From NCBI GenBank assembly GCA_015228975.1, contig JADGCN010000013.1, forward strand, positions 1 through 53,537: a DNA stretch of 53,537 nt. The letters run 5' to 3'. The translations under genes were made by a program, and so were the position numbers. The DNA comes from Magnetococcales bacterium. GTDB taxonomy: Bacteria; Pseudomonadota; Magnetococcia; Magnetococcales; UBA8363. The notes below the pieces were generated by a model. The model worked only from the letters and a program-made list of their open reading frames with translations, made no database searches and was not told where the DNA came from. Shown here piece after piece: positions 4,830-52,954 of the stretch (position 1 is the stretch's first letter; each line of letters begins with the position of its first letter).

Positions 4830-7106
4830 ATGACAGTCAAGATCATCAACGGTATCTATTTATTGTCCAGGTTCTGGTTGCTGATGGTGCTACCGTTCAT
4901 GTCGGGATGCAGCATCAAACCGGTTGCGCTGGATCGTGATCAGTTGGAGCGCCGGATCGCCCTGGATCTACAGGCGATGTTCGCCGGTTCCTCGACACCC
5001 AGGGATGCGTTGACCCTGGAGCAGGCCATGGCCAGGGCGGTCAGCCACAATTTGCAACAACGGGTTGTGGCGTTGGAAGGGGCTTTGGCGTTGGGTTTAA
5101 ACGAATTGGCATCCTATGAGATGTTGCCCCGGGTTCAGGCTTCGGCGGGTTATGTCCAGCGTGATCGCACCACGTATGTGTCGCAGGATCGTTTTCAAAC
5201 CACCAATTCCCTGGAAGCGGCCTGGGGCGTTTTGGATTTTGGCGTCAGCTATATTGACGCACGGCAAAAGTCTGACGGGGTTTTGGTGGCGCGGCAACAA
5301 CGGCGCAAGGCGGCTCTGGACCTCATGGCCGAAGTGGAAAGCGCTTTCGGACAGGCCTTGGTGGCCCAACGCATGGAAAAATCCGTGCGTCCCTTGGCGG
5401 ATCGTATCGGTAAAGCCTTGGAAAATGCCCGTGAAGTGGAACGGCAAGGGATCAAGCCACCCCAGGAATCACTGGATTTCCAAAAACGCTTGTTAAAAAT
5501 TCTCGATCAGTTGCAACGTTTGCAACGTCAGGTTTCGGGATCGAAACTGCGTCTGGCGGAATTGATGAACCTGGAAGGGGGGGATGCCTTGCCACAGTTG
5601 GAAGAGAGCGGATTCTGGTTGCCGTTGGATCTCAAGGCATTGCCGGACATGGCGGAGATGGAAGAGTTCGCCTTGAAAAATCGACCGGAATTGCTGGAGC
5701 GCCATTATCAAAGCCGCATTCAGGCGGATGAAAGCCGCAAAGCCTTGTTGCGTTTGTTGCCTGGATTGGACGTATCCGTCAGCCGCCGCTACGACAATGG
5801 CAGTGTGTATGTGAACCGCAGTTGGGTGGAAAATGGCGTCAGTTTGGCTTGGAATCTGATCAAGGCGGTGACAGCGCCGGAGTTGCTGGCGCAGAGTCAA
5901 TTGGAAGGGGTGCTGGAGGAGCGCCGGCGTCTGGCGTTGTCCATGACGGTTTTGACCCAGCTCCGGGTGGCGCATCTCGGTCTGATGGAAGCAAAAATGA
6001 GTTATGAAACGGCGTTGGAGTTGAGCAAGGTGGATCGCCGTTTGTTTGATCACGCCGTGGCGGGTCGGGATGTGGCGACTTTGAGCGAGGCGCAATTGAT
6101 TGAGTCGGAGGCGGATTTGCTGCTCCAGGATGCCAGGCGGGATCTGGCCTATTCCGAGATCGTCTCCGCGGCATCGCGTCTTTTGAATTCGCTGGGATTG
6201 AACCGCTTGCCATTCGGGTTTGAAACCATGGATGAGGAGCAATTGACCCAGGCGTTGGAAGAGATGTCACGGCGTCCGCAATGGGCGTCGCACACGTTGT
6301 TTGAAGCCGATAACGCCAAAAAGATGCCGGAGGAGGGGCGTGGAAACAAGGAAAAGGGGGTGGCCTCGGCCCAGGAGGCGCTCCAGCCGGTGATCGGCGA
6401 GGAAGACCTGACACCGGCACCCCCCAAATCCAAGGGGGACAGCGGGGGGAGTTCCCGGCCAGAGGATGCGCCTCATGAACCTCAATGGATCCTGGAGTCG
6501 CAGGTGGCACCGGACAAAACCAAGGAATCGGGTCAAGGTGAGCGACCGTATGAGCCGATATGGATTTTGGAGACCCCCGATGCATCCAGGATGCACAAGG
6601 TTCCGGTGTTGCCGTTGGATGCTTCCGTTGCAACGGTTTTTCCCGCCGAAGGGGATGGTCGTGTGGGGGGGGGACGGGGTACCATGGATGCGGATATGGA
6701 AGAAAACGTCGGGGTGATTCTCAAGATAGGGACTTTTGCCGTTCGCGAGCGGGCCTTGGAGGTCTACAGCCGATTGTCGGACAAGGAGTTTCCCGTTGTT
6801 GTGACACTTCTCACCAATGCGGAGGGGGATGATCTGTACCAGGTCACTGTTGGCCCGGTGCGGGGGATGAAGCGCGGTCGGGAGATGCATGCGGCATTGC
6901 AGAAGCTGGAGGGACTTTCAAGCGTGGTTGTTTTGCTTCCCATTCAAGCACCGGACAACAACAAGGTGGTGCGTCAGAGTGATGATTTTCGTTCGGACAC
7001 CCTGGCGGGTCTGGAACAGGTGATCCCTTTGGCTCCGGCGGCGCTTTCCCTGGAAGGGTTGCGGAATGATTCCAAGGTGAGCGACACGGGGTTGAACGGG
7101 TTATGA
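4830..7106 (+). CDS. TolC-family outer-membrane lipoprotein with C-terminal SPOR domain
   Basis: A 758-residue protein. The N terminus has a hydrophobic signal ending MSGC (Cys at about 27), a plausible lipobox. Residues about 60-470 are helical outer-membrane efflux protein (OEP) repeats, with the usual paired segments LTLEQAMARAVSHN and MAEMEEFALKNRPELL. A Pro/Lys/Glu-rich linker (about 490-630) contains two near-copies of EPQWILES / EPIWILET. The last ~110 residues include a SPOR-like peptidoglycan-binding domain (ILKIGTFAVRERA, then LYQVTVGPVRG). A TolC channel tethered to septal or denuded peptidoglycan through SPOR is unusual. It could serve as the exit duct of a type I or RND export system, but no partner pump is adjacent. 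The stop overlaps the start of the adenylate cyclase (ATGA), so the two are translationally coupled. Confidence 0.88.
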   Translation: MTVKIINGIYLLSRFWLLMVLPFMSGCSIKPVALDRDQLERRIALDLQAMFAGSSTPRDALTLEQAMARAVSHNLQQRVVALEGALALGLNELASYEMLPRVQASAGYVQRDRTTYVSQDRFQTTNSLEAAWGVLDFGVSYIDARQKSDGVLVARQQRRKAALDLMAEVESAFGQALVAQRMEKSVRPLADRIGKALENAREVERQGIKPPQESLDFQKRLLKILDQLQRLQRQVSGSKLRLAELMNLEGGDALPQLEESGFWLPLDLKALPDMAEMEEFALKNRPELLERHYQSRIQADESRKALLRLLPGLDVSVSRRYDNGSVYVNRSWVENGVSLAWNLIKAVTAPELLAQSQLEGVLEERRRLALSMTVLTQLRVAHLGLMEAKMSYETALELSKVDRRLFDHAVAGRDVATLSEAQLIESEADLLLQDARRDLAYSEIVSAASRLLNSLGLNRLPFGFETMDEEQLTQALEEMSRRPQWASHTLFEADNAKKMPEEGRGNKEKGVASAQEALQPVIGEEDLTPAPPKSKGDSGGSSRPEDAPHEPQWILESQVAPDKTKESGQGERPYEPIWILETPDASRMHKVPVLPLDASVATVFPAEGDGRVGGGRGTMDADMEENVGVILKIGTFAVRERALEVYSRLSDKEFPVVVTLLTNAEGDDLYQVTVGPVRGMKRGREMHAALQKLEGLSSVVVLLPIQAPDNNKVVRQSDDFRSDTLAGLEQVIPLAPAALSLEGLRNDSKVSDTGLNGL

Positions 7107-9061
7107 CCGGACGCCGGTTGGTTTATGGCCTGATAGTCCTGGGTGCGGTATTGACCTCCTGGTATGGGGTCCGGGGGGTGACGGTCCTGGCGCTGGTGGA
7201 GTATTGGCTGGAGGATATTCGCATTGCCACGTTGCAGCCGCCCGAGGCGCAACATCCCGATATCGTCCTTCTGACGATCACGGAAGAAACCTTGGCGCGT
7301 TTCCCCTATCGTTCCCCTGTGGACCGGGCGTTTCTCGCCGATGTATTGCAGCGTTTGCAGCGGGCCGGGGTCCGGGGGATTTTGATGGATCTGCTGTTGG
7401 ACCAGCCCACCGAACCGGACAAGGATGAGCTGTTGAAGACCACCCTGGAAGGGCTCACGGTTCCCATCATGGTGAGCTATGGTTCGACCGAGGCGTTGTT
7501 GACCGAGGCGCAATTGGCGTTTCAGGAGGCGTTCATCCCCAAGGCGGATCGCGGTTTGGCCAATCTGGTGCAGGATACGCGGGATCAGATGGTGCGTTGG
7601 GTGTTCAATGGTGCTACGGGGAAGGATGGGATGTTTTTGCCCGGGGTGGTCCCGGGGTTGGTGAGCAAGCTGGGAATCACCCCCCCGAACCAGCAAATCC
7701 CCATCGCCTGGCGTGGGCGTCCCGATGCCGATACCGCCCCTTTTCGCGCCTTTCCATCCCATATGTTGCCTTTGCTGCCGGCCTCCTGGTTCCAGGACAA
7801 GATTGTCATTATCGGGGTGGATTTACCCATGACCGATCGGCATCGGACCCCTTATGTGCTGAAAAAATATGCCGCGGACAACCCGGACCGTTTTGGTTCC
7901 TCCGGGATGGTGATTCATGCGCATGCGCTGGCGCAACTCCTGGCCCAGCGGTCGCCGCCGCAGATCGCCCTGTTTTGGCAGTGGGTCGTGACGGTCGTGG
8001 CGGCGCTGGGTGGGGTGTTGGCGGTGCTGGCCAACATGGCCATGCTGGTGCGCCTGATGATCGTCAGTTTCGGGGTGTTACTCTTTTTCGGGGGTGGTTT
8101 CGTACTCTACCAGCAGGGGGGGGTGATCCTCCCCTTGCTGACACCGACCTTGTCCTGGTTGCTGGCATTCGTCGGCGGCGAAAGTTATGAACGACAGCAG
8201 GATCGGCAACAGAAAAAATTTTTAAAAGAGGCTTTTTCCAAATACCTATCGAAAAAATTTGTGGATCATCTGGTCAGTGATCGGGATTTCTTGAAACGAC
8301 GGGCGGAACGCCGTGAACTGACGTTTTTGTTCACCGACATTGAAAATTTTACCACCATGTCGGAAAAAGCGGAGCCGGAAAAGCTGGCCGTATTGATGAA
8401 TCATTATTTGGATGGGGTGTGCAACATTTGTTTGGATCATGGTGGGATGGTGGTGGATTTGATGGGGGATGCGGTTTTTGCCATGTTCAACGCCCCGATT
8501 GATCTGCCCGATCATGCCAACATGGCGGTGCAGTCGGCGTTGGAGGTGCGGGAGTTCGCGGCCCGGTTCCAGCAAAGGGAGGATGCGCATGCTTTGGGTT
8601 TTGGCAGGACGCGAATCGGGATTCATTCCGGCGTCGCCCAGGTTGGCAATTTCGGATCGACCCAACAATTCAAATACACCCCCCTGGGGGATGCGGTGAA
8701 TATCGCTTCGCGTATCGAAGGATTGAATAAATTCTTCGCCACCGATATTTGCATTTCGGACGCCACGGTCCAGGCCAGTGGCTGGGGTGGCGTGCGTCCG
8801 TTGGGACGCTTCGTCCTGAAAGGCAAGGGGGAGGCGTTGATGATCCACGAAATCCCCCCCGAAGGTTTTTATTCAAATGACTATCTTGAAAAATTTCGCA
8901 TGGCCTTCTCTTTGCTGGGACCCGGTCACGCCCCTGTGGACGCACTGGAACCATTTGAAGAGTTGGCACGGGAGAATCCACAGGATAAATGTGTCGCTTG
9001 GTATTTGAGTCGCTTGCGCCTGGGTTTGGATTGTTCAAAAGTGGTGATGATGAGCAAATAA
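7103..9061 (+). CDS. CHASE2-domain class III adenylate/guanylate cyclase
   Basis: A 652-residue membrane-bound cyclase. An N-terminal membrane anchor precedes an extracytoplasmic CHASE2 sensor (about residues 25-290; landmarks DIVLLTITEETLARF and RRAGV/RGILMDLLLD). Three transmembrane helices follow (about 292-312, 315-335, 341-358), then a short coiled linker and a class III cyclase domain (about 403-570). The metal-binding aspartates are visible in FTDIENF (D412) and LMGDAVFAMF (D456). The base-recognition region reads FKYTPLGDAVNIASR, typical of bacterial adenylate cyclases. About 80 C-terminal residues follow without a recognised domain. The start codon overlaps the stop of the TolC-SPOR gene by four bases. 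The expected product is cAMP; the signal sensed by CHASE2 is unknown. Confidence 0.94.
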   Translation: MTGRRLVYGLIVLGAVLTSWYGVRGVTVLALVEYWLEDIRIATLQPPEAQHPDIVLLTITEETLARFPYRSPVDRAFLADVLQRLQRAGVRGILMDLLLDQPTEPDKDELLKTTLEGLTVPIMVSYGSTEALLTEAQLAFQEAFIPKADRGLANLVQDTRDQMVRWVFNGATGKDGMFLPGVVPGLVSKLGITPPNQQIPIAWRGRPDADTAPFRAFPSHMLPLLPASWFQDKIVIIGVDLPMTDRHRTPYVLKKYAADNPDRFGSSGMVIHAHALAQLLAQRSPPQIALFWQWVVTVVAALGGVLAVLANMAMLVRLMIVSFGVLLFFGGGFVLYQQGGVILPLLTPTLSWLLAFVGGESYERQQDRQQKKFLKEAFSKYLSKKFVDHLVSDRDFLKRRAERRELTFLFTDIENFTTMSEKAEPEKLAVLMNHYLDGVCNICLDHGGMVVDLMGDAVFAMFNAPIDLPDHANMAVQSALEVREFAARFQQREDAHALGFGRTRIGIHSGVAQVGNFGSTQQFKYTPLGDAVNIASRIEGLNKFFATDICISDATVQASGWGGVRPLGRFVLKGKGEALMIHEIPPEGFYSNDYLEKFRMAFSLLGPGHAPVDALEPFEELARENPQDKCVAWYLSRLRLGLDCSKVVMMSK

Positions 9062-23356: not shown

Positions 23357-23393
23357 ATTTTATTGCTGGGCTTCAAAGGCTGTGAGGGTTGCC

Positions 23394-25847
23394 ATGAATC
23401 TGATCAAAAATTTAAATCTGCAAAGCAAGTTTTTCCTGCTTTTCCTCGGGCCGTTGGTGGCGCTGATTTTTTATGGTACCGACACCGTCTGGTCGAAAAG
23501 GATGATGCTGACGGAAATCCGCGCCTTTGACGCCATGGCGCGAACGGCGGTGCAGGTGGGGCCGCTGGTGCATGAAATCCAGAAGGAGCGGGGATTGACA
23601 GCCGGCTACTTGGGGAGCAAGGCGGGCAAATTCAAGGAGGACATGGCCAAGCAGCGGGTGTTGACCAACACCGAGGCCACCAAGCTCAAAGATTATTTGC
23701 GCATTGAAAATCCCATGTCCCAGAGTGCCGATTTCCTGGCTTCGGCCAAGGAGGCACAGGCGGCGCTGGACCGCTTGAATGATATTCGTTGGCAGGTTGA
23801 CAGCGACAAAATGGATGTGAATCGCGCCATTGAATTTTATACGACTTTGAATCATTCCTTGATGGATCTCCTCAAAAAGATTGTCGTTTTCTCTACGCAT
23901 CCACAAATGATGGCGCAGACAACGGCCTATTTGAATCTTCTCAATTCCAAGGAGCGTGCCGGGTTGGAGCGGGCGGTATTGAGCAATGTCTTCGCCAGCA
24001 ACACCTTTCCCAAGGAGTTGCGTCCCCGTTTCATGACGTTGATGGCGGAGCAGGAGATTTATGACGAGTTGTTCGTCTCTTTCGCCACGGAGTTGCAGGT
24101 CACGAGTTTTCGCAACAAAATGGCCGGGGAGGCAACGGCGGAAATCAAGCGGATGCGGCAGACGGCCCTGGAACATATGGAGGATGGCGCGTTCCATATC
24201 GATCCCATCTATTGGTTCGATACCATGACCCATCGCATCAACCTGTTGCAGGAGGTTGAGCAGCTCGTGGTGCAAGACTTGGGCAAGACGGCGCGTACCC
24301 TGATCGATCAGGCTTCATTCGCCTCGGTTGCCTATCTGGTGTTCACGGTGGTGATCGTGGTGTTCACAGTTGTCCTGGGTTTCATGACGTTGCGCGACAT
24401 ACGGCGGCAACTGGGTGCCGAACCCCGCGTCGTGACCACGCTTGCCGAACGGATGGCTTTGGGTGACTTTTCCGCCAAAATTGAAACGGATGCCAAATCT
24501 TCCGGCATATTCAAGGCCCTGCATGATTTACAGAGTTATTTGATCGTGCAATTGGGTGGTGAACCCGCGGAGGTGGTGCGTTACGTGGATCGTTTGGCGG
24601 GTGGTGATCTTTCCAGTTTTCGCAAGGGGGACGGGTCTTCGACCGGCATATTCGGAGCCATGGGCAACATGGTGGAAAATTTGCGGGAGTCGGTGGGATC
24701 GGTCATCCAGATCAGCCGGCGCATCGTTGAGGAGAGCGACCGGATCAACAACAATTCGCAAATGGTATCGGATGGTGCCATCCAACAAGCGGCTTCCATC
24801 ACCGAAACCGCCGCCTCCATGGAGGAGATGACCATCAATATTCAAAAAACCACGGAAAATGCCCAGAGAACCGAGGAAATTGCCCGTGCATCCGCCAATG
24901 AAGCGGTGATCAGCGGTCAGGCGGTGGCGGAAACGGTGGATGTCATGAAACAAATCGCCGAGGAAATTTCCATCATCGACGAGATCGCCCACCAGACCAG
25001 CCTGCTGTCCCTCAATGCATCGTTGGAAGCGACCCGGGCCGGGGAATATGGCAAGGGCTTCGCCGTAGTGGCCTCGGAGGTCCGCAAGTTGGCGGAACGC
25101 AGCCAATCCGCCGCCGCCAAGATCACGGCCCTTTCCTCTTCGAGCGTGGATGTGGCGGTCAAGGCGGGGCACAGCCTGCAAAAATTGGTGCCGGATATTC
25201 AACGCACCGCCGAATTGGTGCGCATGATTTCCAATGCCTCTCAGGAACAGAGCCAGGGCCTGGAACAGATCAATATCGCCATCCAACAATTGGATCAGGT
25301 GATTCGCAACAATGTGGGTGCCGCAACGACCATGCGCACTTCGGCTTCAGCGTTGTCCGACAATGCGGCGGAATTGCAAAGTTCCATTGCCTTCTTCCAA
25401 TTGGAAGGTTCTGCCATCGATGGAACGCATGAGTCGAATCAGGAGTTCTTCCCCTGGACGGAAAATCTGAGCGTTGGCATTCCCGAGATGGACAAGCAGC
25501 ACAAACGCTTGTTGGAACTGATCAACCTCCTGGCTTCCCGAATCCAGAGCGGACGTGCGGAGGAGGGGGTCCGGGTCGTGTTGCCGGAACTGAAAGAATA
25601 TACTTTGTTTCACTTTGCGCAGGAGGAAGAGTTGTTTACTTCCGCAGGCTATCCCGATGCCACCAACCATAAAGAAAAACATAAAAAAGTGGTGGAACGG
25701 GTTGTCGCCTTCATCGACCAGGTGGGCAAGGGGGATGTGTCGGTGGCCAATGCCTTGCTCGGATTTTTACGTAACTGGTTGATCACGCACATCATGAAGG
25801 TGGACAAACAATATGGCAAATTCATCAACGAACGTGATGCGGCCTAG
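23394..25847 (+). CDS. Chemoreceptor with NIT sensor and C-terminal hemerythrin domain
   Basis: An 817-residue MCP. ATG 23394 is preceded by GAGGG; the in-frame GTG at 23382 is less likely. The order is transmembrane helix 1 (about 13-28), a periplasmic NIT (nitrate/nitrite-sensing type) domain opening with [18 protein letters not shown], transmembrane helix 2 (about 309-332), HAMP and a second HAMP-like unit (both with GDFS/GDLS turns), the signalling domain with tip [21 protein letters not shown], and a bacteriohemerythrin from about 683. All seven di-iron ligands are visible: H in MDKQH, H and E in FHFAQEEE, two H in NHKEKHKK, H in THIMK and the following D. The hemerythrin suggests oxygen or redox sensing in the cytoplasm, coupled to a periplasmic signal. 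Confidence 0.95.
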
Positions 25848-25860
25848 CTCATGGGATGGG

Positions 25861-25879
25861 TCGGGCATTTCCAGCCCGA
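25861..25879 (+). other. Small hairpin after the receptor gene
   Basis: TCGGGC and GCCCGA pair around a seven-base loop, 13 bases past the receptor's stop. No T-run follows, so intrinsic termination is doubtful. It may be an mRNA processing or stabilising structure within the operon. Confidence 0.3.
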
Positions 25880-25940
25880 TGGTTGGCCAATGGGGCGGGG
25901 ATCTGCCGCTGGCGAGGATTGCGTTGAATAATCAGGTACC

Positions 25941-27482
25941 ATGTCCTTGATCTGGGTATTGATTGTTTGCGACGACCGTTTTTTCCGTGAAAAGTTGGGC
26001 GGTCTGATCATGGAATCACCCAACTTTGGCGGGGCGGAATGGACCGATTCCAGCCCGATGGCTGTGCGTCAGGCGATTTCCGGAGGGCCAAACCTGGCTA
26101 TTGTCGAAGTCGACTCCCACAAGCCGGGGGGATTTCACGTGATCGACAAGTTGCGACAGCACGGGATTCCTTTTATGGCCATGTCGGTGGCGGGGGACCC
26201 CATCGCCACGCGAAAGGCTTTGGACGCGGGCGCTTTGGATGTGTTCGAGCGTGAAAGTTTGTTCGACGACGATACCTGCCGGCACTTGCCGGATCGCATC
26301 CTGAAGGCTTTTGAGGGGGGGGGAAAGGTGGTTCCGGGCAACAACACGGCCCGGGTCACAGCCACTCCCGGGGCGGTTTCGTCCCCTGTTGCGCGTTCTT
26401 CGGCGCGCCAACCGGTGGGAACTGCGGCGGCGGGTGTCGCCAAAACCGCGGGGACACGGGCACCTGTGGGACCGAAGGTTTTATTGGTTAACGGCGGTGT
26501 GGGATTGCAGCAAATCTTGTCGCAATCGACGGCGATCCGGGAGGTCTTGAGCGTTGAAGGGGGACGGGCGGCGTTGGACAAGGCGGTGCGGATGCAACCC
26601 GATGTGGTTGTTGTCAACCTGACTCCCCCTGCCGGACGTGGGCTGGAGAGCATCTCCCTGTTGGTGGATCGATTGGGTTTGCCGGTGGTGGTCCTGTGCG
26701 ATGAAAAGGACAACGATTCGTTTTATGAAGCCTTCAACCGGGGTGCCTTGGAGGTTTTTGCCCGTTCTCAAGTTTTGTCCAAAGAGGGTGCGGTCTCTTT
26801 CATCGACAAGGTCATGACGTTGGCGCGGATGGCGATACGAACCGTGCCCCCGTCCTCTCCAGCGCCGGTGCCCGCTGCTGTGCCGGTGAACGCAGTTGCC
26901 GGGAAATCGGCGCTTAAATCGGGTATCGTCGCCATTGCCAGTTCCACGGGTGGCCCCAAGGCGTTGGTGGAACTTTTAAAGGTTTTTCCCAAAGATTTTT
27001 CCCATCCCGTTGTCATCGCCCAACATATCCATCCCGACTATGTGGGGGGATTGGAGGTTTGGTTGGCCCGGACCACCAGCTTCAAGGTCAAAATAGCGGC
27101 CCATGGGGATTTGTTGCTCCCCGGTTCCCTGTACATCGCCCCGGCTACCGGCAACATGGAGGTGCGTGGTGGCGGGGTGTTGTCCTTGTCGGCCAAACAG
27201 GCAGATGATCTCTATTCCCCCTCCTGTGATCGTTTGCTGCTGTCGGCGGCGCAGGTCTATGGAAGCAACGCCATTGGTGTGATCCTGACGGGCATGGGGC
27301 GGGATGGGGTGCAAGGGATTCGGGCTATCCACGAGGCGGGCGGCTATACGTTGGCCCAGGACCGCGCCACATCCATGGTGTTCAGCATGCCGGGTAGCGC
27401 CATTGAACTCAAGGTCGTTTCGCAAATCGGACCGCCGGAAAGATTGGGTCAGAATATTATCAAATGGGTCTCTGCGCGATGA
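25941..27482 (+). CDS. cheB: CheB methylesterase with two receiver domains lacking the phosphoacceptor Asp
   Basis: A 513-residue protein, about 160 longer than usual CheB. The first receiver-like domain (about 1-125) keeps the acidic pair D11-D12, but the acceptor position is E56 (LAIVEVD). The second (about 176-300) has lost the acidic pair (LLVNGG) and has N226 at the acceptor position (VVVVNLT). A Pro/Ala linker leads to the methylesterase domain (about 325-513) with the catalytic triad visible as S335 in ASSTGG, H362 in AQHIHPDY and D in GMGRDG. It removes methyl groups from receptors, or deamidates them. The catalytic part looks intact but classical phosphorylation control by CheA should be absent or altered. 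Its stop overlaps the cheR start (ATGA). Confidence 0.94.
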   Translation: MSLIWVLIVCDDRFFREKLGGLIMESPNFGGAEWTDSSPMAVRQAISGGPNLAIVEVDSHKPGGFHVIDKLRQHGIPFMAMSVAGDPIATRKALDAGALDVFERESLFDDDTCRHLPDRILKAFEGGGKVVPGNNTARVTATPGAVSSPVARSSARQPVGTAAAGVAKTAGTRAPVGPKVLLVNGGVGLQQILSQSTAIREVLSVEGGRAALDKAVRMQPDVVVVNLTPPAGRGLESISLLVDRLGLPVVVLCDEKDNDSFYEAFNRGALEVFARSQVLSKEGAVSFIDKVMTLARMAIRTVPPSSPAPVPAAVPVNAVAGKSALKSGIVAIASSTGGPKALVELLKVFPKDFSHPVVIAQHIHPDYVGGLEVWLARTTSFKVKIAAHGDLLLPGSLYIAPATGNMEVRGGGVLSLSAKQADDLYSPSCDRLLLSAAQVYGSNAIGVILTGMGRDGVQGIRAIHEAGGYTLAQDRATSMVFSMPGSAIELKVVSQIGPPERLGQNIIKWVSAR

Positions 27483-29029
27483 TGCTCAAAAGGAAACCAT
27501 TGGCGACTCCCGATGCCCCGGAGTTGAGTCGCTTTAAAACCTTCCTGAAGGAAAGGAGTGGTTTGATCTTTGTCGGCAATCGGGAACGGTTGCTGGTGAC
27601 CGGCTTGCTGGAGCGTGCCCAGGCCACCCGTATCGCCTCCTGGGAGAACTATCGACAGCGCCTGGAGCAGGATGCCAAGGAACTCGATAAGCTCATTACC
27701 CTGCTGACGGTCAACGAATCCTATTTTTTTCGGGAGTCGGACCAATTGCGTCTGTTGTCGCAACATTTGATTCCCGAATTCCGTCGCCGGGCGGGGAATG
27801 CGCCGGTGCGGATCATCAGTGCCGGCTGCTCCAGTGGCGATGAGCCTTACTCCATCGCCATGGAGATGGTGCGTGCGTTGGGCAAGGAGGCCTTGCCGAC
27901 GTTTGAGGTCATGGGGTGCGACATCGATCAGGGTATTTTGGATCGGGCCAGGGAGGGGATTTACAATGATTATTCCTTTCGTGGCGTCGATCCGGAAATC
28001 AGGAACCGATTTTTCAAGGCTTTGGGTCCCGACCGTTTCCAGGTCATGGATGAGATTCGTCGCCGGGTGACGTTTTACCAGGTGAACCTTGCCGGGGGCA
28101 GTTTCCCCGATGTGTTGCGTCGCGTCGATTGTATTTTTTATCGTAATGTATCGATCTATTTCGACAAACCGACGCAACGACACATTTTTAATCATCTTGC
28201 GGGCTTGCTCAAGCCCGGTGGTGCCTTGATCGTGAGTGCCACCGAAATATTCACCCATACGAGTTTTTTGGATGGTATGGGTCATGGATTGGTACGCGAC
28301 GAATGGAACAATATCTTGTTTTTCCGCAAGTCTCGTCCCGGGGAGGGCCGGGCCGCTACGCAGACGGGTTTGTTTTCCTCAACTTTGCGCCATGACAAAC
28401 CGCCGACCATCACCGCCCCCCCGGCCCGGGTGGCCACGCCCGTTCCCAGTGTTTCGGTGGCATCCGCTAAGGTTGCTGTGGCTGCGGTGCTATCGGGGGT
28501 CGGGTCTTGGGAGCAGGCGCGGCAACTGGCCCTGGAAAAACGGTATGAGCAAGCCTTGAAAATGTTGGATGGGTTGTTGGCTGCGTCGGCATCGTCCCAG
28601 GATTCTCTCCGGGCGTTGGGTTTGGGGGGGTGTATCTTTCTGCATGTGCGGCGCTTGACCGAAGCGCGCAATCACTGTTTGCGCATGCAAAAACTCGATC
28701 CCATGTCCGTGGAAAGCCATCTCCTATCGGGTCTGGCGGATCGCCAGGACGGCAATCACGATGGGGTTATTACCCATTGTCGCAAGGCCGCCTACGCCGA
28801 TCCACAGATTTGGACCGCGCATTTCTACATGGCGGAATCTTTTTCGGCGGTGGGGTCGCTGCCTTTGGCGCGGCAGGGGTTCCAGACCGCGGCCAATCGC
28901 ATTGAACGTTTTGGCATGGCCCGGACCGGGTTGAGTTTCTACCCCCTGGATTTGACCGGAGAGGAGATGATTCAGTTGTGCCGTCGGCGCATGGAGCAAC
29001 CCGATAACGCCGGGCGTTACCGAATCTAA
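27479..29029 (+). CDS. cheR: CheR methyltransferase with C-terminal TPR-like domain
   Basis: A 516-residue protein. ATG 27479 overlaps the cheB stop by four bases. The N-terminal helical CheR domain (about 13-75) is followed by the SAM-dependent methyltransferase domain. Landmarks are TVNESYFFRE, the SAM loop SAGCSSGDEPYSIA, the acidic ribose site GCDID, and FYRNVSIYF (usually CRNVLIYF). Residues about 300-355 are a Pro/Ala/Val linker, followed by about 150 residues of TPR-like helices (ALEKRYEQALKMLDGLL, then EARNHCLRMQKLDP). It methylates glutamates of receptors with SAM. TPR-extended CheR proteins are typical of alternative (non-flagellar or pilus/c-di-GMP) chemosensory systems. Confidence 0.95.
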   Translation: MMLKRKPLATPDAPELSRFKTFLKERSGLIFVGNRERLLVTGLLERAQATRIASWENYRQRLEQDAKELDKLITLLTVNESYFFRESDQLRLLSQHLIPEFRRRAGNAPVRIISAGCSSGDEPYSIAMEMVRALGKEALPTFEVMGCDIDQGILDRAREGIYNDYSFRGVDPEIRNRFFKALGPDRFQVMDEIRRRVTFYQVNLAGGSFPDVLRRVDCIFYRNVSIYFDKPTQRHIFNHLAGLLKPGGALIVSATEIFTHTSFLDGMGHGLVRDEWNNILFFRKSRPGEGRAATQTGLFSSTLRHDKPPTITAPPARVATPVPSVSVASAKVAVAAVLSGVGSWEQARQLALEKRYEQALKMLDGLLAASASSQDSLRALGLGGCIFLHVRRLTEARNHCLRMQKLDPMSVESHLLSGLADRQDGNHDGVITHCRKAAYADPQIWTAHFYMAESFSAVGSLPLARQGFQTAANRIERFGMARTGLSFYPLDLTGEEMIQLCRRRMEQPDNAGRYRI

Positions 29030-29050
29030 AAGCCAAGGGAGAGTGCGGTC

Positions 29051-31501
29051 ATGGCCATGGACATGTCCAGATTTATCAAGCGCTTTGTCAGTGAGGCCCG
29101 GGATCATATTGAAACGATCAATAAAGGTCTGGCGGCATTTGAGGAGGGCAAGGGGGATGAGGATCTGATCCATTCGGTCTTTCGTTCGGCCCATACCATC
29201 AAGGGGACCTCGCGGATGATCAAGCTGCTTTCCATTTCGGAGATGGCGCACGGAATGGAAAACATATTCGGCTTGGTGCGCGAGGGACGCATGACCGTGG
29301 ATGCCGATGTCGCCGAAGTGCTGTACCGGGGTATCGATTGGATCGCGGCGCAGGTGGAAATCGCTGCCGAGGGTGGTGCGGTCCTGGATGTGGATCAGGA
29401 ATTGATCGCCCAAATGTCTGAAGTTTTCAATCGGATCAACCAGGGGGGGGATGCTTCACCGACCGGGGCACCTGTCTCGGGGGGGGAACAGGGGACGGTT
29501 GCGCCATCGGAAACGGTGGAAAAGACGGAAGCGGCACCGGTGGAAAAGACGGAAGCAGTGCCGGCGAAAAAGGCGGAAGCGGAACCGGTTGAAATGACGG
29601 AAGCGGAGTCTGTGGAAAAGGCGGCACCGGCGGAAAAGACGGAAGCAGTGCCGGCGAAAAAGACGGAAGCGGAGTCGGCGAAAAAGGCAGAACCTGACAG
29701 AGGGCTGCCGCGAACGGAGGATAAGGTCCGTGCCGGTGCGGATCAGTCCAAGGCAAAAAGCCAGGAATCGACAGGGACCATCCGCCTGGAGGCATCACAG
29801 CTTGATGAATTGATCAAGATTGGCGGTGGGATGATCACTTTTCGCACCCGCATGAAGGCGCGTTTGTCGGGATTGTCGCAGGCGGTATCGTTGGCCCATG
29901 ATGTCCATTCCCATTTGAACATTGTGTTGGGTGGGCAAGGGGGGGAAGAGGAGCAACGCTCGGTACGACTCCGCAAGCAGGCACGGGAGTTGGCGGATGA
30001 ATTGGCGCGGGTGCGCACCTTGCTGGTGGAGGATGCGGATCAGCTTGATTTGTTGACGATGGAGTTGCAGGACCGTTCCCTTAAATTACGCATGCTCCCT
30101 TTGTCGTCGTTGTTTGAAACGTTTCCGCGCCTGGTGCGTGATGCCGCCCGGGCGCTGAAGAAAAAAGTGCGTTTGAACATTCAGGGTGGGGATACCGAAC
30201 TGGATCGCACCATCATTGAAACCATTGGTGACCCACTGGTTCACATGTTGCGCAACAGCGTCGATCATGGCATGGAAACCCCGGAGGTACGCCGGGAATT
30301 GGGCAAACCGGAGACGGGGACCATCCTGTTGCGTGCCTGGCCGCAGGGCAACAGTGTGGTCATTGAACTGATTGATGATGGTCCCGGCATTCATGTCGAG
30401 CGTCTCAAAGAAAAGGCCCTGCAAAAAAAACTGATGGAGGCGGAGGAATTGGAAGCCAAGCCACGTCAGGAACTCCTGAAATTGATTTTTCATCCCGGTC
30501 TTTCCACGAGTCAGATCATCACCGATTTTTCTGGTCGTGGTGTGGGTATGGATGTGGTCCACAAAAATATTGTGGATGTCATGAATGGGACGATTGAAGT
30601 GGAATCGGAGGAGGGCAGGGGGACCCGTTTTATTTTACGTCTGCCCCTGACCATGGCCACGTTGCGTGTCTTGCAATTCGAGGTGGGGCGCCGTCCGTAC
30701 GCCATGTCCTCGGGATCCATTCAGGAGGTGGATCAGTTTTATTTGGATGCGGGGATTCAGGTCGTGGGTCGGCGGGCCATTCTATTGCGTGATCAGGTGA
30801 TTCCGGTGATTCGCATGGCGGAAATCCTGGGGGTGCCGCCACGTCCCTGGGAAGAGTTGGGCAAGGCGGATATCCTGATCGTTTCCAATGGCATTGAAAC
30901 CTTGGGATTGGTGGTGGATGGGATCCTGGACGAAGATGTCATGGTTCTCAAACCCATGCCCCTCATTCTGCAAAACAATCGTCTGGTGACCGGGGCGTTG
31001 GTGTCGGGCAACAATGAAATCGTCATGGTATTGGACAGCGCCTACATCATCCAATTGGCCAAACGGCTATACCGCAGTCAAATATCCGCAGGTCGTTCCT
31101 TGGCGGCGCGTCCGGAGGGCCAGGGGCGCAGGCGCATTCTGGTGGTGGACGATTCCATGAATACCCGGGAATTGGAAAAGGATATCCTGGAATCCAAGGA
31201 TTACCATGTCAGCCTGGCCCAGGATGGGCAGGAGGGGTTCGACATGGCCAGCCAATTCCCATTTGATCTGGTGGTGACCGACGTGGAAATGCCGCGCCTG
31301 GATGGCTTTTCACTGACCGAAAAATTGCGTGCCACGGAGATGCATAAGTATACCCCTATCGTTATCGTTACATCGCGGGATCGCGAGGAGGACAAACAAC
31401 GTGGCATCCATGTCGGTGCCAATGCGTATATCGTCAAGGGTGCGTTTGACGAATTCAGCTTATTGGATACCGTACAAAATTTGCTAGAATTCGGTGCTTG
31501 A
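29051..31501 (+). CDS. cheA: CheA histidine kinase with C-terminal receiver domain
   Basis: An 816-residue hybrid CheA; ATG 29051 follows GGGAGAG. The Hpt domain occupies 1-105 with phospho-accepting H48 in SAHTIKGTS. In place of a recognisable P2 (CheY-binding) domain there is a low-complexity linker of KTEA/AEKTEAVPAKK repeats (about 155-220). Then come the dimerisation/catalytic core (N-box MLRNSVDHGME; DDGPGI; SGRGVGMDVV), a CheW-like regulatory domain, and a receiver (696-815) with D744 in VVTDVEMP, D700-D701 and K796. The attached receiver may act as a phosphate sink or a second output alongside the free CheY. It is the centre of the operon. Confidence 0.96.
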   Translation: MAMDMSRFIKRFVSEARDHIETINKGLAAFEEGKGDEDLIHSVFRSAHTIKGTSRMIKLLSISEMAHGMENIFGLVREGRMTVDADVAEVLYRGIDWIAAQVEIAAEGGAVLDVDQELIAQMSEVFNRINQGGDASPTGAPVSGGEQGTVAPSETVEKTEAAPVEKTEAVPAKKAEAEPVEMTEAESVEKAAPAEKTEAVPAKKTEAESAKKAEPDRGLPRTEDKVRAGADQSKAKSQESTGTIRLEASQLDELIKIGGGMITFRTRMKARLSGLSQAVSLAHDVHSHLNIVLGGQGGEEEQRSVRLRKQARELADELARVRTLLVEDADQLDLLTMELQDRSLKLRMLPLSSLFETFPRLVRDAARALKKKVRLNIQGGDTELDRTIIETIGDPLVHMLRNSVDHGMETPEVRRELGKPETGTILLRAWPQGNSVVIELIDDGPGIHVERLKEKALQKKLMEAEELEAKPRQELLKLIFHPGLSTSQIITDFSGRGVGMDVVHKNIVDVMNGTIEVESEEGRGTRFILRLPLTMATLRVLQFEVGRRPYAMSSGSIQEVDQFYLDAGIQVVGRRAILLRDQVIPVIRMAEILGVPPRPWEELGKADILIVSNGIETLGLVVDGILDEDVMVLKPMPLILQNNRLVTGALVSGNNEIVMVLDSAYIIQLAKRLYRSQISAGRSLAARPEGQGRRRILVVDDSMNTRELEKDILESKDYHVSLAQDGQEGFDMASQFPFDLVVTDVEMPRLDGFSLTEKLRATEMHKYTPIVIVTSRDREEDKQRGIHVGANAYIVKGAFDEFSLLDTVQNLLEFGA
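29515..29690 (+). repeat. Imperfect in-frame repeats encoding the Lys/Glu-rich CheA linker
   Basis: GAAAAGACGGAAGCAGTGCC occurs twice, about 90 bases apart, within a run of related KTEA/KKAE-coding units. The stretch encodes the disordered linker between Hpt and the dimerisation domain. Its length probably varies between strains by slippage. Confidence 0.75.
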
Positions 31502-48689: not shown

Positions 48690-49685
48690 ATGGTACCCTT
48701 CAGGCTATTGATAGCAGCACTTGTGACCGGTGGTCTCCTGACAGCGGCCACGGTCTTCGCCAAGTCGGAGGACAACCCCGCGGAAAAATTGTGGCTGTAT
48801 GCCGTGGAAGGCAATCCTGTCGGCGTCAAGAAGGCCCTGGATCAGGGGGCTGATGTCAATTTTCCCAGCAAAAGCGGTATGACCCCATTGATGTGGGCGG
48901 TCCAGGAAGGACATGACGAGATCGCCGGTTACTTGGTCAAAAAGGGGGCTAACGTCAATGCGTATCATCAACGGGGTGGTTGCAGCGCCCTGATTTTGGC
49001 GGTCGATTGGTTGCGTCCCAACATGGTGGACCTTTTGCTCGCCAGTGGCGCCGATGTCAACCTGAAGACCAAGCGCAATTGGACGGCTATCCTGAAAACC
49101 GCCGACAACAAAATTAAGGATGAGGCGGAAGGAAAAAAATTGGTTCAGATCGCCCAGTCCCTCCTGGCCAAAAAGGCGGATCTCAAGGCGGTTAACAGTG
49201 AAGGGCGTACGGCGCTCATGCTGGCCGCCAATCGTGGCAATTGGGAATTGATGCAACTCCTGATCAAAGAAGGGGCTGAGGTCGATGCCAAAGATACAGA
49301 GGGGAATACATCCTTGATGCTGGCGACGCTGGCTGGTCATGAAAAGGCGGTGAAAGTGTTACTGGAAGCCAAGGCCGACCCAGGGGTACGTTACCCCTCC
49401 GGCTCCACGGCCTTGATGTTCGCCGCTGAAAAGGGCAAAGACAAGGTGGCTCAGCTCTTGATTGACCATGGCGCGGATGTGAATGCCAAAAACGAAGATG
49501 GCATGACGCCCTTGATGTTTGCCGCCAAATACGGTCATACGGCTGTAGCGGCGCTGCTCATTGCCGCCAAGGCCCCTGTCAACGAAATCAACAAGGAGGG
49601 GGCGACGGCACGCTTGTTGGCAACCGAGGCGGGCCATGATGAGGTGCAAAACCTTCTCAAGGAAGCGGGGGGACGCTGCTTGTAA
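48690..49685 (+). CDS. Exported ankyrin-repeat protein
   Basis: A 331-residue protein with a Sec signal (about 1-25, cleavage after VFA) and an AAGGAG ribosome site. The mature chain is almost entirely ankyrin repeats, about eight to nine of them. Examples are GMTPLMWAVQEGHDEIAGYL, GRTALMLAANRGNWELMQLL, STALMFAAEKGKDKVAQLL and GMTPLMFAAKYGHTAVAALL. It probably acts in the periplasm as a protein-interaction scaffold. Small exported ankyrin proteins often protect or assist haem enzymes such as catalase or cytochromes; the next genes encode a multihaem cytochrome system, so an assembly or protective role there is plausible but inferred. Confidence 0.9.
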   Translation: MVPFRLLIAALVTGGLLTAATVFAKSEDNPAEKLWLYAVEGNPVGVKKALDQGADVNFPSKSGMTPLMWAVQEGHDEIAGYLVKKGANVNAYHQRGGCSALILAVDWLRPNMVDLLLASGADVNLKTKRNWTAILKTADNKIKDEAEGKKLVQIAQSLLAKKADLKAVNSEGRTALMLAANRGNWELMQLLIKEGAEVDAKDTEGNTSLMLATLAGHEKAVKVLLEAKADPGVRYPSGSTALMFAAEKGKDKVAQLLIDHGADVNAKNEDGMTPLMFAAKYGHTAVAALLIAAKAPVNEINKEGATARLLATEAGHDEVQNLLKEAGGRCL

Positions 49686-49763
49686 TTTGGGTAACCCGGT
49701 CATTCGCCTGTTTCCAGGTATCTTGGAATGGCTGCTTGGCAAGGCCCATACAAGGATGCGGTT

Positions 49764-51386
49764 ATGGTCCGAGTCATGATCCGTACGCTCCTGTGTTGTG
49801 TCGTGGTTGCTCTCCTGATGGTTCCGTCAGGTCCGCTCCAGGCGCATTACGCCTTGGAGGCGATGCCCCAATCGACAACCCGGCATGGCAAACTGCCCGC
49901 CTTGGATGGTCCCTTCGCCTCGGGAATGGAAGTGACCCGGGCCTGTGTGGGCTGTCATACCGAGGTTGCGGCGAGCGTTCGTAAAAGTGTGCATTGGACT
50001 TGGGAATCGACGTATGCCCCCCCGGGTAAAGCGTTTGGCAAAAAACATGTGATCAATGCCTTTTGTGGTGCCGTGACCAGCAATATGCGGGAATGCACCT
50101 CCTGCCACATCGGCTATGGCTGGCAGGATCCAGAAGGGGGGGCGAATCCAGATGAGCAGGTGGATTGTTTGGTGTGTCACGAATCGACTGGGGATTATAA
50201 AAAATATAATTTTGGCTATAGCGAGCTAAAATTTCGTGACAAAATCATAAAAAAACCAGACTTTGTCGCTTTGGCCAAGGGAGTGGCCCGACCGGGACGG
50301 GCCAATTGCGGTTCCTGTCACTTTTATGGGGGATCGGGCGATGGCGCCAAGCATGGCGATTTGGATTCCTCACTCGTCAAGGCATCGCGCTCTCTGGATA
50401 TTCACATGCACAAGGATGGACAAAATTTTTCCTGTGTTGTCTGTCACAATGCCCCCGGCCATCAGATCACCGGCTCGCGCTATCGTTTGAAAGCCTACGA
50501 TGCCATGGGTATTGACCGCCCCGGGCACACCGACGGTACCCGGACCTCCTGTGCCTCGTGTCATGGCAATGCGCCGCACGTCAAAAACGACAAGCTCAAC
50601 GATCACGTTGACCGGGTTGCCTGCCAAACCTGTCATGTCCCGGCCATGGCGCGGGGGGGGGTGCCGACCATGGTGTTTTGGGATTGGCGCATGGCGGGGC
50701 AAAAAAAGGGATACTCCGAAATTGCCCCCGAGGTCGCCGATCTGCTCAAAAAAGAGGGACATCTGCCGGATAAGATCTCCTTTCATCATGATCGTACCCA
50801 TGGCACATCATTGTGGGGGGAAAACCTGGTACCACGTTACGCCTGGTTCAACGGTCGTGTGGATTTTCTCGACCCGAAACAGACCCTGCCGGATGACGTT
50901 CCGATTGCCATCAACCGTGTTTTTGGCAGTGCCGGTGATTCTTCCGCCAGGATTTGGCCTTTTAAAAAAATGGGGTCCATGCTGCCTTACGACAGTGTGA
51001 ACCGTACCGTGGTGATCAATCATCTGGTCAAGAGCGGCCCAGACGACAAGGAAGCCTTTGAGGATACGGGCAATTGGTCACAATCGGCTGCCGTGGGGAT
51101 GAAAGAAGCGGGTATCCCGTTCGGTGGCCAGGTGGCTTTTCGTTACGCGACCATGGTGTTTCCGCTCACCCACATGGTCGCCCCCAAGGAGCTGTCCTTG
51201 AAGTGCCGGGAGTGTCATCGCCATGGTGGACGCCTGGAAGGGATTACGGGTGTTTATATTCCGGGGCGTGACAATCATCCATCGATCCATGGGCTGGGGC
51301 GTGCCGCGGCGCTTTTGACCCTGGGTGGTATCCTCATTCATCTCACCTTGCGCCTGTTGTTGCGGCGCAAACGATTCACTAAATGA
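49764..51386 (+). CDS. Octahaem cytochrome c, tetrathionate-reductase (OTR) family-like
   Basis: A 540-residue exported multihaem protein. ATG 49764 gives a Sec signal (about 1-28, after LQA) with AGGA upstream. Eight CxxCH motifs are visible: CVGCH, CTSCH, CLVCH, CGSCH, CVVCH, CASCH, CQTCH and CRECH. Their number, the spacing over a ~500-residue chain and the order of intervening segments suit the octahaem tetrathionate reductase family. Those enzymes reduce tetrathionate, nitrite or hydroxylamine in vitro; the physiological substrate is unknown. A C-terminal transmembrane helix (about 512-532) plus RRKRFTK would anchor it in the inner membrane facing the periplasm. Its stop overlaps the start of the cytochrome b gene. 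Confidence 0.88.
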   Translation: MVRVMIRTLLCCVVVALLMVPSGPLQAHYALEAMPQSTTRHGKLPALDGPFASGMEVTRACVGCHTEVAASVRKSVHWTWESTYAPPGKAFGKKHVINAFCGAVTSNMRECTSCHIGYGWQDPEGGANPDEQVDCLVCHESTGDYKKYNFGYSELKFRDKIIKKPDFVALAKGVARPGRANCGSCHFYGGSGDGAKHGDLDSSLVKASRSLDIHMHKDGQNFSCVVCHNAPGHQITGSRYRLKAYDAMGIDRPGHTDGTRTSCASCHGNAPHVKNDKLNDHVDRVACQTCHVPAMARGGVPTMVFWDWRMAGQKKGYSEIAPEVADLLKKEGHLPDKISFHHDRTHGTSLWGENLVPRYAWFNGRVDFLDPKQTLPDDVPIAINRVFGSAGDSSARIWPFKKMGSMLPYDSVNRTVVINHLVKSGPDDKEAFEDTGNWSQSAAVGMKEAGIPFGGQVAFRYATMVFPLTHMVAPKELSLKCRECHRHGGRLEGITGVYIPGRDNHPSIHGLGRAAALLTLGGILIHLTLRLLLRRKRFTK

Positions 51387-52429
51387 CCATGACCTACCAT
51401 CCAGAATTGTTGTTTTCCCGTTATGAACGGTTCTGGCATTGGACCCAGGCGTTGTTGATCCTCGCCTTGATTGTCACCGGGTTTCATGTCACCGGATTTG
51501 TGGAATGGCTCGATTATGAACTGGCGGCTCGTTGGCACCGGCAGTTTGCCCTCTATTTGGTGTTGCTGTGGACTTTTACCTTGTTTTGGCTGTTGATTAC
51601 TGGGGAATGGCACCAATATGTCCCCACCAGTGAAAAAATGATGGACGTGATCCATTATTATTCCAAGGGCATCTTCGACCCGTTTCTGACCCACCCCTTT
51701 AAAAAATCGCGGCGCAGGAAACATAACCCGCTACAGCGCATCGCCTATTTGATCTTGAGTGTCGTTCTGTCCCCTGTGTTGTTGGTTTCCGGGGCATTGT
51801 TCGCCTTTTATAAAAATTGGCACTGGGTGGGGATACCCAGTTTTTGGTTGGAGGATGTGGCGGGGGTGCATGTGGCGGTGGCCTATGCCATGGTATGTTT
51901 CGTTATTTTACATGTTTACATGGTTTTCACCGGCAAACCCACTACAGCGGCCATTATCGCGATGATCACCGGCGTTGCCGAAGTGGAAGATATGGAGCTG
52001 GATGCAAATCGGGAATATCAATTGTTGGTGGTCGAGGATGATGCGGTGATTGCGCTGATGATCCAGGGGTGGTTGGACGCGGGTGAGTTCCGGGATGGTG
52101 ACGCCATTCTACCGGTTAAATTTGCTGTAACCCATTGTGATCATTTATCGTCGGCCATCAAAGCACTGGCTCAGAATACCTTTGATCTCATCGTGTTGGA
52201 CCTAACCTTGCCGGATTGCGATGGTATTGCCACCCTGCGACACATTCGTGCCGCTGCCCGGGATGTGCCTATTTTGGTAATTCACGAATCGATGGACGAC
52301 AATTTGCAATCCCGTGTTATCCATGAAGGTTCCCAGGATTTTCTCGTCAAGACCCACTTGAGCCGTCGTATCTTGCTGCGTTCTTTTCGCTTTGCCCTGG
52401 AGCGGCATTGGTTTTTGCAAGGACGATGA
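51383..52429 (+). CDS. Cytochrome b561-type membrane subunit fused to a response-regulator receiver domain
   Basis: A 348-residue fusion. Residues 1-205 are a four-helix di-haem cytochrome b of the Ni/Fe-hydrogenase/thiosulfate-reductase type. Candidate haem ligands are H19, H35 and H52 on the first helices, and H163 and H177 on the last helix. Residues about 212-345 are a receiver: LLVVEDDAVIALMI with the acidic cluster E218-D219-D220, phosphoacceptor D273 in LIVLDLTLPDCDG, and K323 in FLVK. There is no break in frame between the parts. The start overlaps the octahaem cytochrome stop by four bases, so this is probably the quinol-oxidising membrane partner of that cytochrome. A cytosolic receiver implies phosphorylation control of electron flow, or redox-to-signalling output. 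I know of no standard family with this architecture. Confidence 0.9.
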   Translation: MTMTYHPELLFSRYERFWHWTQALLILALIVTGFHVTGFVEWLDYELAARWHRQFALYLVLLWTFTLFWLLITGEWHQYVPTSEKMMDVIHYYSKGIFDPFLTHPFKKSRRRKHNPLQRIAYLILSVVLSPVLLVSGALFAFYKNWHWVGIPSFWLEDVAGVHVAVAYAMVCFVILHVYMVFTGKPTTAAIIAMITGVAEVEDMELDANREYQLLVVEDDAVIALMIQGWLDAGEFRDGDAILPVKFAVTHCDHLSSAIKALAQNTFDLIVLDLTLPDCDGIATLRHIRAAARDVPILVIHESMDDNLQSRVIHEGSQDFLVKTHLSRRILLRSFRFALERHWFLQGR

Positions 52430-52547: not shown

Positions 52548-52763
52548 TCAAGCAAAACTGTATTCTTCCAGTTGATCGACTGGTTCCTCACGGGCCAGAA
52601 GGATGTCTCTGATCATGCTGAAGGGGAGGTCTGGATTTTCTTCGGCAATCTTTCCAATCCTGGACCAATATTCAATCTGTTTGGGCAATGAACGGTGCGA
52701 GACCCGACCGTGGCGTTTTGCTTCGGCTACCAAGTCGTCAGAAATTTTCACATTGACAGGCAT
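52548..52763 (-). CDS. ParD-like antitoxin, orphan
   Basis: A 71-residue protein. ATG 52763 is chosen because GGAGG lies eight bases upstream and MPVNVKISDDLVAEAKRH is the typical start; the frame extending to 52865 is not needed. The N terminus suits a ribbon-helix-helix DNA-binding fold. HRSLPKQIEYWSRIGKIAEENPDL is characteristic of the ParD-like family. No toxin gene (PIN, ParE or other) lies on either side on the same strand, so it is an orphan antitoxin or regulator. Confidence 0.8.
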   Translation of the reverse strand: MPVNVKISDDLVAEAKRHGRVSHRSLPKQIEYWSRIGKIAEENPDLPFSMIRDILLAREEPVDQLEEYSFA

Positions 52764-52954
52764 TTTTAAACCTCCAACCGTGGAACCCCAAGATAATCCA
52801 AAACGGACCAAAATGGAACATGGAACATCATGATCACCTCGGTTTACATCGTTTTCCAGCATCACTCTCGCCCTCGATTAAAGCATTCAGGCCCTGCTTA
52901 GAGTCCATATAGAGTTGATACGGACGAAACGATGATCATTGCCTTTCTGAGAAT

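Follow-up and report, generated by a model that had tools for sequence, protein, structure and literature searches.

A cytochrome b561-type protein fused to a response-regulator receiver beside an OTR-family octahaem cytochrome in Magnetococcales

Introduction

The usual picture of two-component control is one of transcription, or of an effect on soluble enzymes and motors. In response regulators whose output is enzymatic, such as the CheB and SpoIIE types found among the genes scanned here, a receiver is joined to an effector, and further members of this class exist beyond these two types. Hybrid kinases may also carry a C-terminal receiver behind membrane helices. A metabolic membrane protein joined to a two-component part is described for the transporter-kinase fusion KsAmt5 (PMC10433425).

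According to PMC11024163, the OTRs are octahaem cytochromes with eight haem motifs, in which a conserved Lys ligates haem 2, and their function is cryptic. For the Shewanella OTR, reduction of nitrite, hydroxylamine and tetrathionate has been reported (PMC4484225); the same source describes it as receiving electrons from STC, which is fed by CymA, an arrangement that differs from a dedicated cytochrome b. For another organism with an OTR gene, growth tests gave no support for the predicted sulfur/polysulfide/thiosulfate respiration, according to PMC5317091; this failure calls for caution in naming a substrate from the gene.

Here, a gene from a Magnetococcales genome was analyzed in which these elements come together. 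It lies in a stretch of 53,537 nucleotides (contig JADGCN010000013.1), the whole of which is called the window. The locus resembles the known pairing of an OTR (1SP3; TIGR04315) with a neighboring cytochrome b561-type gene in octahaem family, in the eight CxxCH motifs, in the Lys position and in the gene pairing itself, but the known pairs differ in having no receiver (74/74 loci outside the order, among the best 80 of 580 relatives). With the Ni_hydr_CYTB/b561 subunits of the thiosulfate reductase, hydrogenase and formate dehydrogenase type, the protein shares the Pfam family, four membrane helices and the His pattern, whereas the receiver is an addition. Compared with the response regulators with enzymatic outputs, the part that serves as effector is a haem protein integral to the membrane, and the receiver sits at the C-terminus. 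The chain is like the hybrid kinases in the position of its receiver but is without a HisKA or HATPase match. KsAmt5 differs in having a kinase instead of a receiver and a carrier instead of a respiratory subunit (PMC10433425).

Results

The gene at 51383-52429 (+) was translated as a single stop-free frame of 348 aa. Its di-haem cytochrome b561-type domain (residues 1-205; 51383..51997, +) has four long hydrophobic helices and matched Ni_hydr_CYTB (PF01292) at residues 11-197 with an E value of 8.7e-22. The receiver domain (residues about 211-348; 52013..52426, +) has five strand/helix repeats and matched Response_reg (PF00072) at residues 246-329 with an E value of 6.4e-15. Both matches were above the curated Pfam cut-offs, and with the translation they bear out the original prediction of a di-haem cytochrome b and a receiver in one uninterrupted frame. 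Six His (19, 52, 104, 114, 163, and 177) were identical in the alignment columns of all 19 fused proteins found (see below), and H19, H52, H163, and H177 are presumably, from what is known of the family, the His suited to ligate the two b haems. The cytochrome b stayed below the cut-offs of three NCBIfam equivalogs, of the thiosulfate reductase, hydrogenase and formate dehydrogenase type (best 25 of 95 families). In the Pfam search, no HisKA, HATPase or other transmitter domain was matched in the fused chain.

Structure prediction of the junction, which had been proposed as a check, was carried out with AlphaFold2 (35 rows, mean pLDDT 85.3, pTM 0.69). The model showed the hydrophobic half as four long helices, a short strand at residues 198-203 just ahead of the junction, and a complete receiver fold with five strands and five helices at residues 211-346. 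The junction was placed at about residues 206-210 (51998..52012, +) from this model and from the matches of unfused relatives, which stop near residue 205. The top Foldseek rows aligned the receiver part with the PorX, PmrA, and DctD receivers (TMt 0.89 for PmrA). Among the best 50 Foldseek and 60 phmmer rows all were receivers or receiver-containing proteins, and a cytochrome b chain was absent.

The upstream gene (49728..51386, +) encodes an OTR-type octahaem cytochrome c of 552 aa, with a hydrophobic N-terminus, eight CxxCH motifs and, by hydropathy, a C-terminal membrane-type helix near residues 519-546. It scored 499.2 bits with TIGR04315 (cut-off 375) and matched 1SP3 at 6.9e-89. Its Lys208 was aligned with residue 153 of 1SP3, which we take to be the Lys ligand of haem 2. 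Judged by its sequence, the neighbor is an OTR-family octahaem cytochrome. The C..CH-x-KHG motif was kept in 17/17 OTRs of the other fused loci (genome G007 has no OTR) and in 90 of 93 further OTRs, five of which are duplicate records of fused loci; two of the three misses are fragments. With the ATG at 51383 as the start, the gene shares four bases with the stop end of the octahaem gene, and the overlap reported earlier is present. Because most homologue alignments begin at Met3 (51389), the true start may be Met3, which would leave a 2-base gap after the octahaem gene.

The distribution of the fusion was then determined. With the window included, 19 fused copies were found in 15 of 48 Magnetococcales genomes, representing five families. 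Two of them are cut by contig ends, in G002 four residues short of the end and in G030 inside the receiver; the G044 locus, cut ahead of the junction, was counted apart from the 19. The other 18 copies were 41-99% identical to the window protein and had the same junction. Homologues split by a stop at the junction, the contrary outcome named in the original prediction, were looked for, and none of the 19 copies was split there; the architecture is unusual, and in the relatives it is fused rather than split.

The window's genome is a draft of 234 contigs and 75.9% completeness. A second fused copy in it (G000:C165:14000-25729, L038), 59% identical, stands behind an OTR and follows genes for a molybdopterin oxidoreductase, a TtrB/DsrO-like FeS protein and NrfD, all under the curated equivalog cut-offs in their best rows. 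This cluster points to sulfur or related anaerobic respiration, with the substrate not fixed by the genes. A third OTR and cytochrome b pair (G000:C152:5000-21000, L056) is without a receiver. In the draft assembly of G007 (L044:7259-9481), the OTR gene appears to be missing between an ankyrin gene and the intact fused gene, and in G003 and G004 two more multihaem cytochromes were found upstream of the fused locus. As a separate observation, a cytochrome b lies beside a larger octahaem cytochrome (713-743 aa), weakly similar to OTR, in L072, L073, L074, L075, and L077.

The coupling of the fused cytochrome b to the octahaem cytochrome proved stronger than had been claimed, since three genera fuse all three parts. 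A single frame holds OTR, cytochrome b and receiver in G022 (899 aa) and in G020 (950 aa), each with eight CxxCH motifs, and in G009 (811 aa), where the contig cuts the 5′ end and seven CxxCH motifs are visible. In the long frames (811-955 aa) a C-terminal output domain was considered and rejected, the extra length being N-terminal OTR. These triple fusions are the strongest evidence in the sequences that the three parts would act as one complex. Their grouping had support of 99/74 and is unsure because their branches are long. A model of a triple fusion (mean pLDDT 67.7) was too weak for haem placement, and its first Foldseek match was 1SP3. From the C-terminal OTR helix, the basic residues that follow it and the four cytochrome b helices we infer a topology with a cytoplasmic receiver.

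A tree of 109 cytochrome b domains was calculated, rooted at the midpoint for display; L078-L083 (records of genomes already included) and rows of <120 bits or <150 aa were left out. One branch, with support of 100/98, separated the 19 fused rows, together with the row of the cut G044 locus, from the others. The next rows out were the unfused same-order copies in G025 and G029 (99/88), then Roseospira (99/95). On this tree, the label "fused" needs two changes, the contig-cut row L057 sitting beside L055. Because the fused cytochrome b rows form one group, a single origin fits, and the fusion apparently arose once inside Magnetococcales and was then duplicated in the window's genus.

For loci outside the order, the GTDB species genomes were scanned and the best 80 of 580 confirmed relatives (591 stretches) were analyzed. 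Six of these 80 carried the fusion, and all six are Magnetococcales records. The remaining 74 lie outside the order and belong, by title, to Alpha-, Beta-, and Gammaproteobacteria, sulfate-reducer groups and others. In all 74, a frame of the OTR type was accompanied by one for cytochrome b, ≤150 nt apart in 73, and in none of these 74 did the cytochrome b frame contain a receiver. Among 152 outside-order genomes (of 200), no match spanning both domains was present among the matches listed, which reached about E 1e-12. Candidate fusions in L117, L119, and L151, outside the order, were rejected, as the alignment past residue 205 crosses a stop into unrelated sequence. On the other hand, a receiver-free fusion of OTR and cytochrome b was found outside the order at L098:126-2426 and L126:6291-8642.

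The phosphorylation residues of the receiver were compared among the copies. The original prediction that all of them are present stands for D273 and K323. The acid pair, which we place at E218/D219 by analogy with PhoB-type motifs, differs from the D219/D220 first proposed, and the position usually Thr/Ser is His301 in the window receiver. In the fused receivers D273 was kept in 18/19 and K323 in 17/18 (Arg in L045), E or D was found at 218 in 18/19, D219 in 16/19 and D220 in 18/19, and mean column conservation was 59%. At position 301, 11/18 receivers have Thr or Ser, the members of the window's clade have His or Asn (6/6), and one further copy has Ala. In the second G006 copy (C65), residue 273 is Asn and residue 219 is Gly, and this receiver is probably not phosphorylated; Gly also occupies 219 in G002. 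By these residues, the fused receivers would mostly be phosphorylatable in principle, those of the window's clade with a non-standard switch. The dN/dS of the receiver was 0.033-0.129 (six of eight pairs computable), indicating at the sequence level that the receiver is under purifying selection. The receiver was less conserved than the cytochrome b in 17/18 comparisons (for example 36% versus 50% in G026). L243-P244 and R341 were invariant and a FALERH-like tail was conserved, all outside the phosphorylation site.

The genomic neighbors were then scanned. An ankyrin-repeat protein (48690..49685, +; PF12796, 1.8e-62) is encoded upstream of the OTR, and a homologue stands in this place in 9/18 other fused loci and also near the different cytochrome b and octahaem pair in L072 and L073. 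At least 1 kb of downstream sequence was available for 15 fused loci, window included. In G011, a DctP/periplasmic-binding-protein chain starts 15 bases after the fused gene and is followed by a hybrid kinase (HisKA, HATPase, two receivers and Hpt) and then a receiver-SpoIIE phosphatase. In G020, the fused gene overlaps by 4 bases an NMT1-type binding protein, which is followed by a PAS hybrid kinase. G011 and G020 belong to different families, and their kinase neighbors are different systems. At least one downstream frame, on either strand, was scanned, besides the window, for each of L038, L039, L040, L043, L044, L046, L047, L048, L050, L051, L052, and L053, and for L055. Among these loci a histidine-type kinase was detected by Pfam downstream of L050 and L052 only, several of the scanned frames having no Pfam match, and a kinase was absent in 9 of 11 other fused loci with downstream genes scanned. 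A conserved kinase partner was considered and rejected: genes related to the G011 pair of binding protein and kinase are found in other genomes at a distance from the fusion, and the G011 adjacency is therefore one datum. In G042, three same-strand downstream frames gave no Pfam match, and the opposite strand carries a GGDEF/EAL-type gene.

Beside the window gene, no kinase was seen in the 1.1 kb to the contig end, where two frames were scanned: one is ParD-like and the other has no Pfam match. The ParD-like antitoxin protein lies at 52548-52865 (−; PF11903, 6.5e-17). A ParD-like protein also adjoins the fused gene in G005 (L039), with a NACHT-domain frame beyond. A chemotaxis cluster at 23382-31501 encodes an NIT-MCP with a C-terminal hemerythrin domain, CheB with a receiver, CheR, and a CheA-receiver hybrid (29051-31501). 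The CheA that had been suggested as partner is present 20 kb from the fused gene, but the link itself found no support and was set aside: no che gene occurred among the Pfam-scanned neighbors of other fused genes, a subset of their neighbors. Elsewhere in the window, the start of a CHASE2 and adenylate/guanylate cyclase gene (7103-9061) overlaps the end of an outer-membrane efflux protein gene.

Discussion

The best reading of these results is a complex for electron transfer from quinol to OTR, with a cytoplasmic receiver that would either gate it or dock it to a kinase. We put it forward tentatively, as a reading that comes close to probable, its function being deduced from sequence. The respiratory complex would consist of two parts, with the gene product as its membrane subunit. 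Its di-haem cytochrome b would exchange electrons with the quinone pool, a quinol donor being suggested by the family, and the electrons would pass to a membrane-anchored, periplasm-facing octahaem reductase of the OTR type. At the cytoplasmic end of the cytochrome b, a histidine kinase would dock on the receiver and phosphorylate it, and the change in receiver state would alter electron flow or complex assembly, so that the respiratory enzyme would be controlled directly and post-translationally. The receiver is most simply read as a kinase control point. In a fuller version, the respiratory enzyme would itself be the response regulator, as one chain (three genera) or one operon: a di-haem wire across the membrane would connect a periplasmic octahaem site to a phospho-receiver in the cytoplasm, and a kinase would set the flux immediately, without transcription; we regard this version as possible, with some doubt.

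In favor of the electron-transfer complex we counted the 19 fused copies and their single group in the tree, the triple fusions, the dN/dS values, the retention of D273 and K323, and the receiver fold. The kinases downstream in G011 and G020, and the identity of the OTR with its Lys position, were also counted for it. Counted against it were the few kinase neighbors, those two differing from each other, the His/Asn at position 301, the losses in the G006 C65 copy and Gly219 in G002, as well as the absent OTR in G007 and the lower conservation of the receiver compared with the cytochrome b.

The receiver may instead be a docking or localization module, possibly phosphorylation-free, that would place the complex near a cytoplasmic or polar partner. 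The non-canonical position 301 in the window's clade, the paralogue without a phospho-acceptor, and the conservation of L243-P244, R341 and the FALERH-like tail outside the phosphorylation site are consistent with such a role, whereas the near-constant D273 (18/19) and K323 (17/18) argue against it. We consider a docking module rather unlikely.

A reversed direction was also weighed, in which the cytochrome b/OTR complex would be the sensor: b-haem redox state or quinone occupancy would tune the uptake or loss of phosphate by the receiver, making it a redox-tuned sink or a reporter for a hybrid kinase. A C-terminal receiver without an output domain suits a phosphate-sink role, the operons of binding protein and hybrid kinase stand downstream in two genomes, and KsAmt5 is a precedent for a membrane carrier as signaling input (PMC10433425). 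The fused chain is, however, without a kinase or other transmitter domain, and the OTR keeps its haem motifs and Lys position, as a working reductase would; a sensor of this kind is unlikely.

A neutral, lineage-specific fusion with the receiver as tolerated baggage would agree with its restriction to one order (among the matches listed), with the faster divergence of the receiver than of the cytochrome b and with the one degenerate paralogue, but the purifying selection on the receiver and the persistence of the fusion in five families, no split version having been found, make it improbable. A sequencing or assembly artefact joining two genes has a negligible chance: the window's genome is a draft and six records with the fusion are metagenome assemblies, but frameshift and chimera are ruled out because 18 further copies, on other contigs and 41-99% identical, share the junction.

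In this architecture, the known pair of OTR and cytochrome b is combined with another known element, a response regulator whose output is enzymatic. For a receiver with a cytochrome b561 or an octahaem cytochrome, or for a membrane-bound response regulator, no description was found in the literature searched, a scope that left out subscription journals and domain databases. What is new here is that three genera encode OTR, cytochrome b, and receiver as a single chain, and that two genomes have a binding protein and hybrid kinase directly downstream. The poorly understood OTR family is tied by these loci to a dedicated cytochrome b, inside and outside Magnetococcales. A receiver on a quinone-linked subunit, kept in five families and in places joined to the reductase, would be a direct case of electron transport gated by phosphorylation, open to testing, and, if the electron flux is truly set by a kinase, a new class of two-component output.
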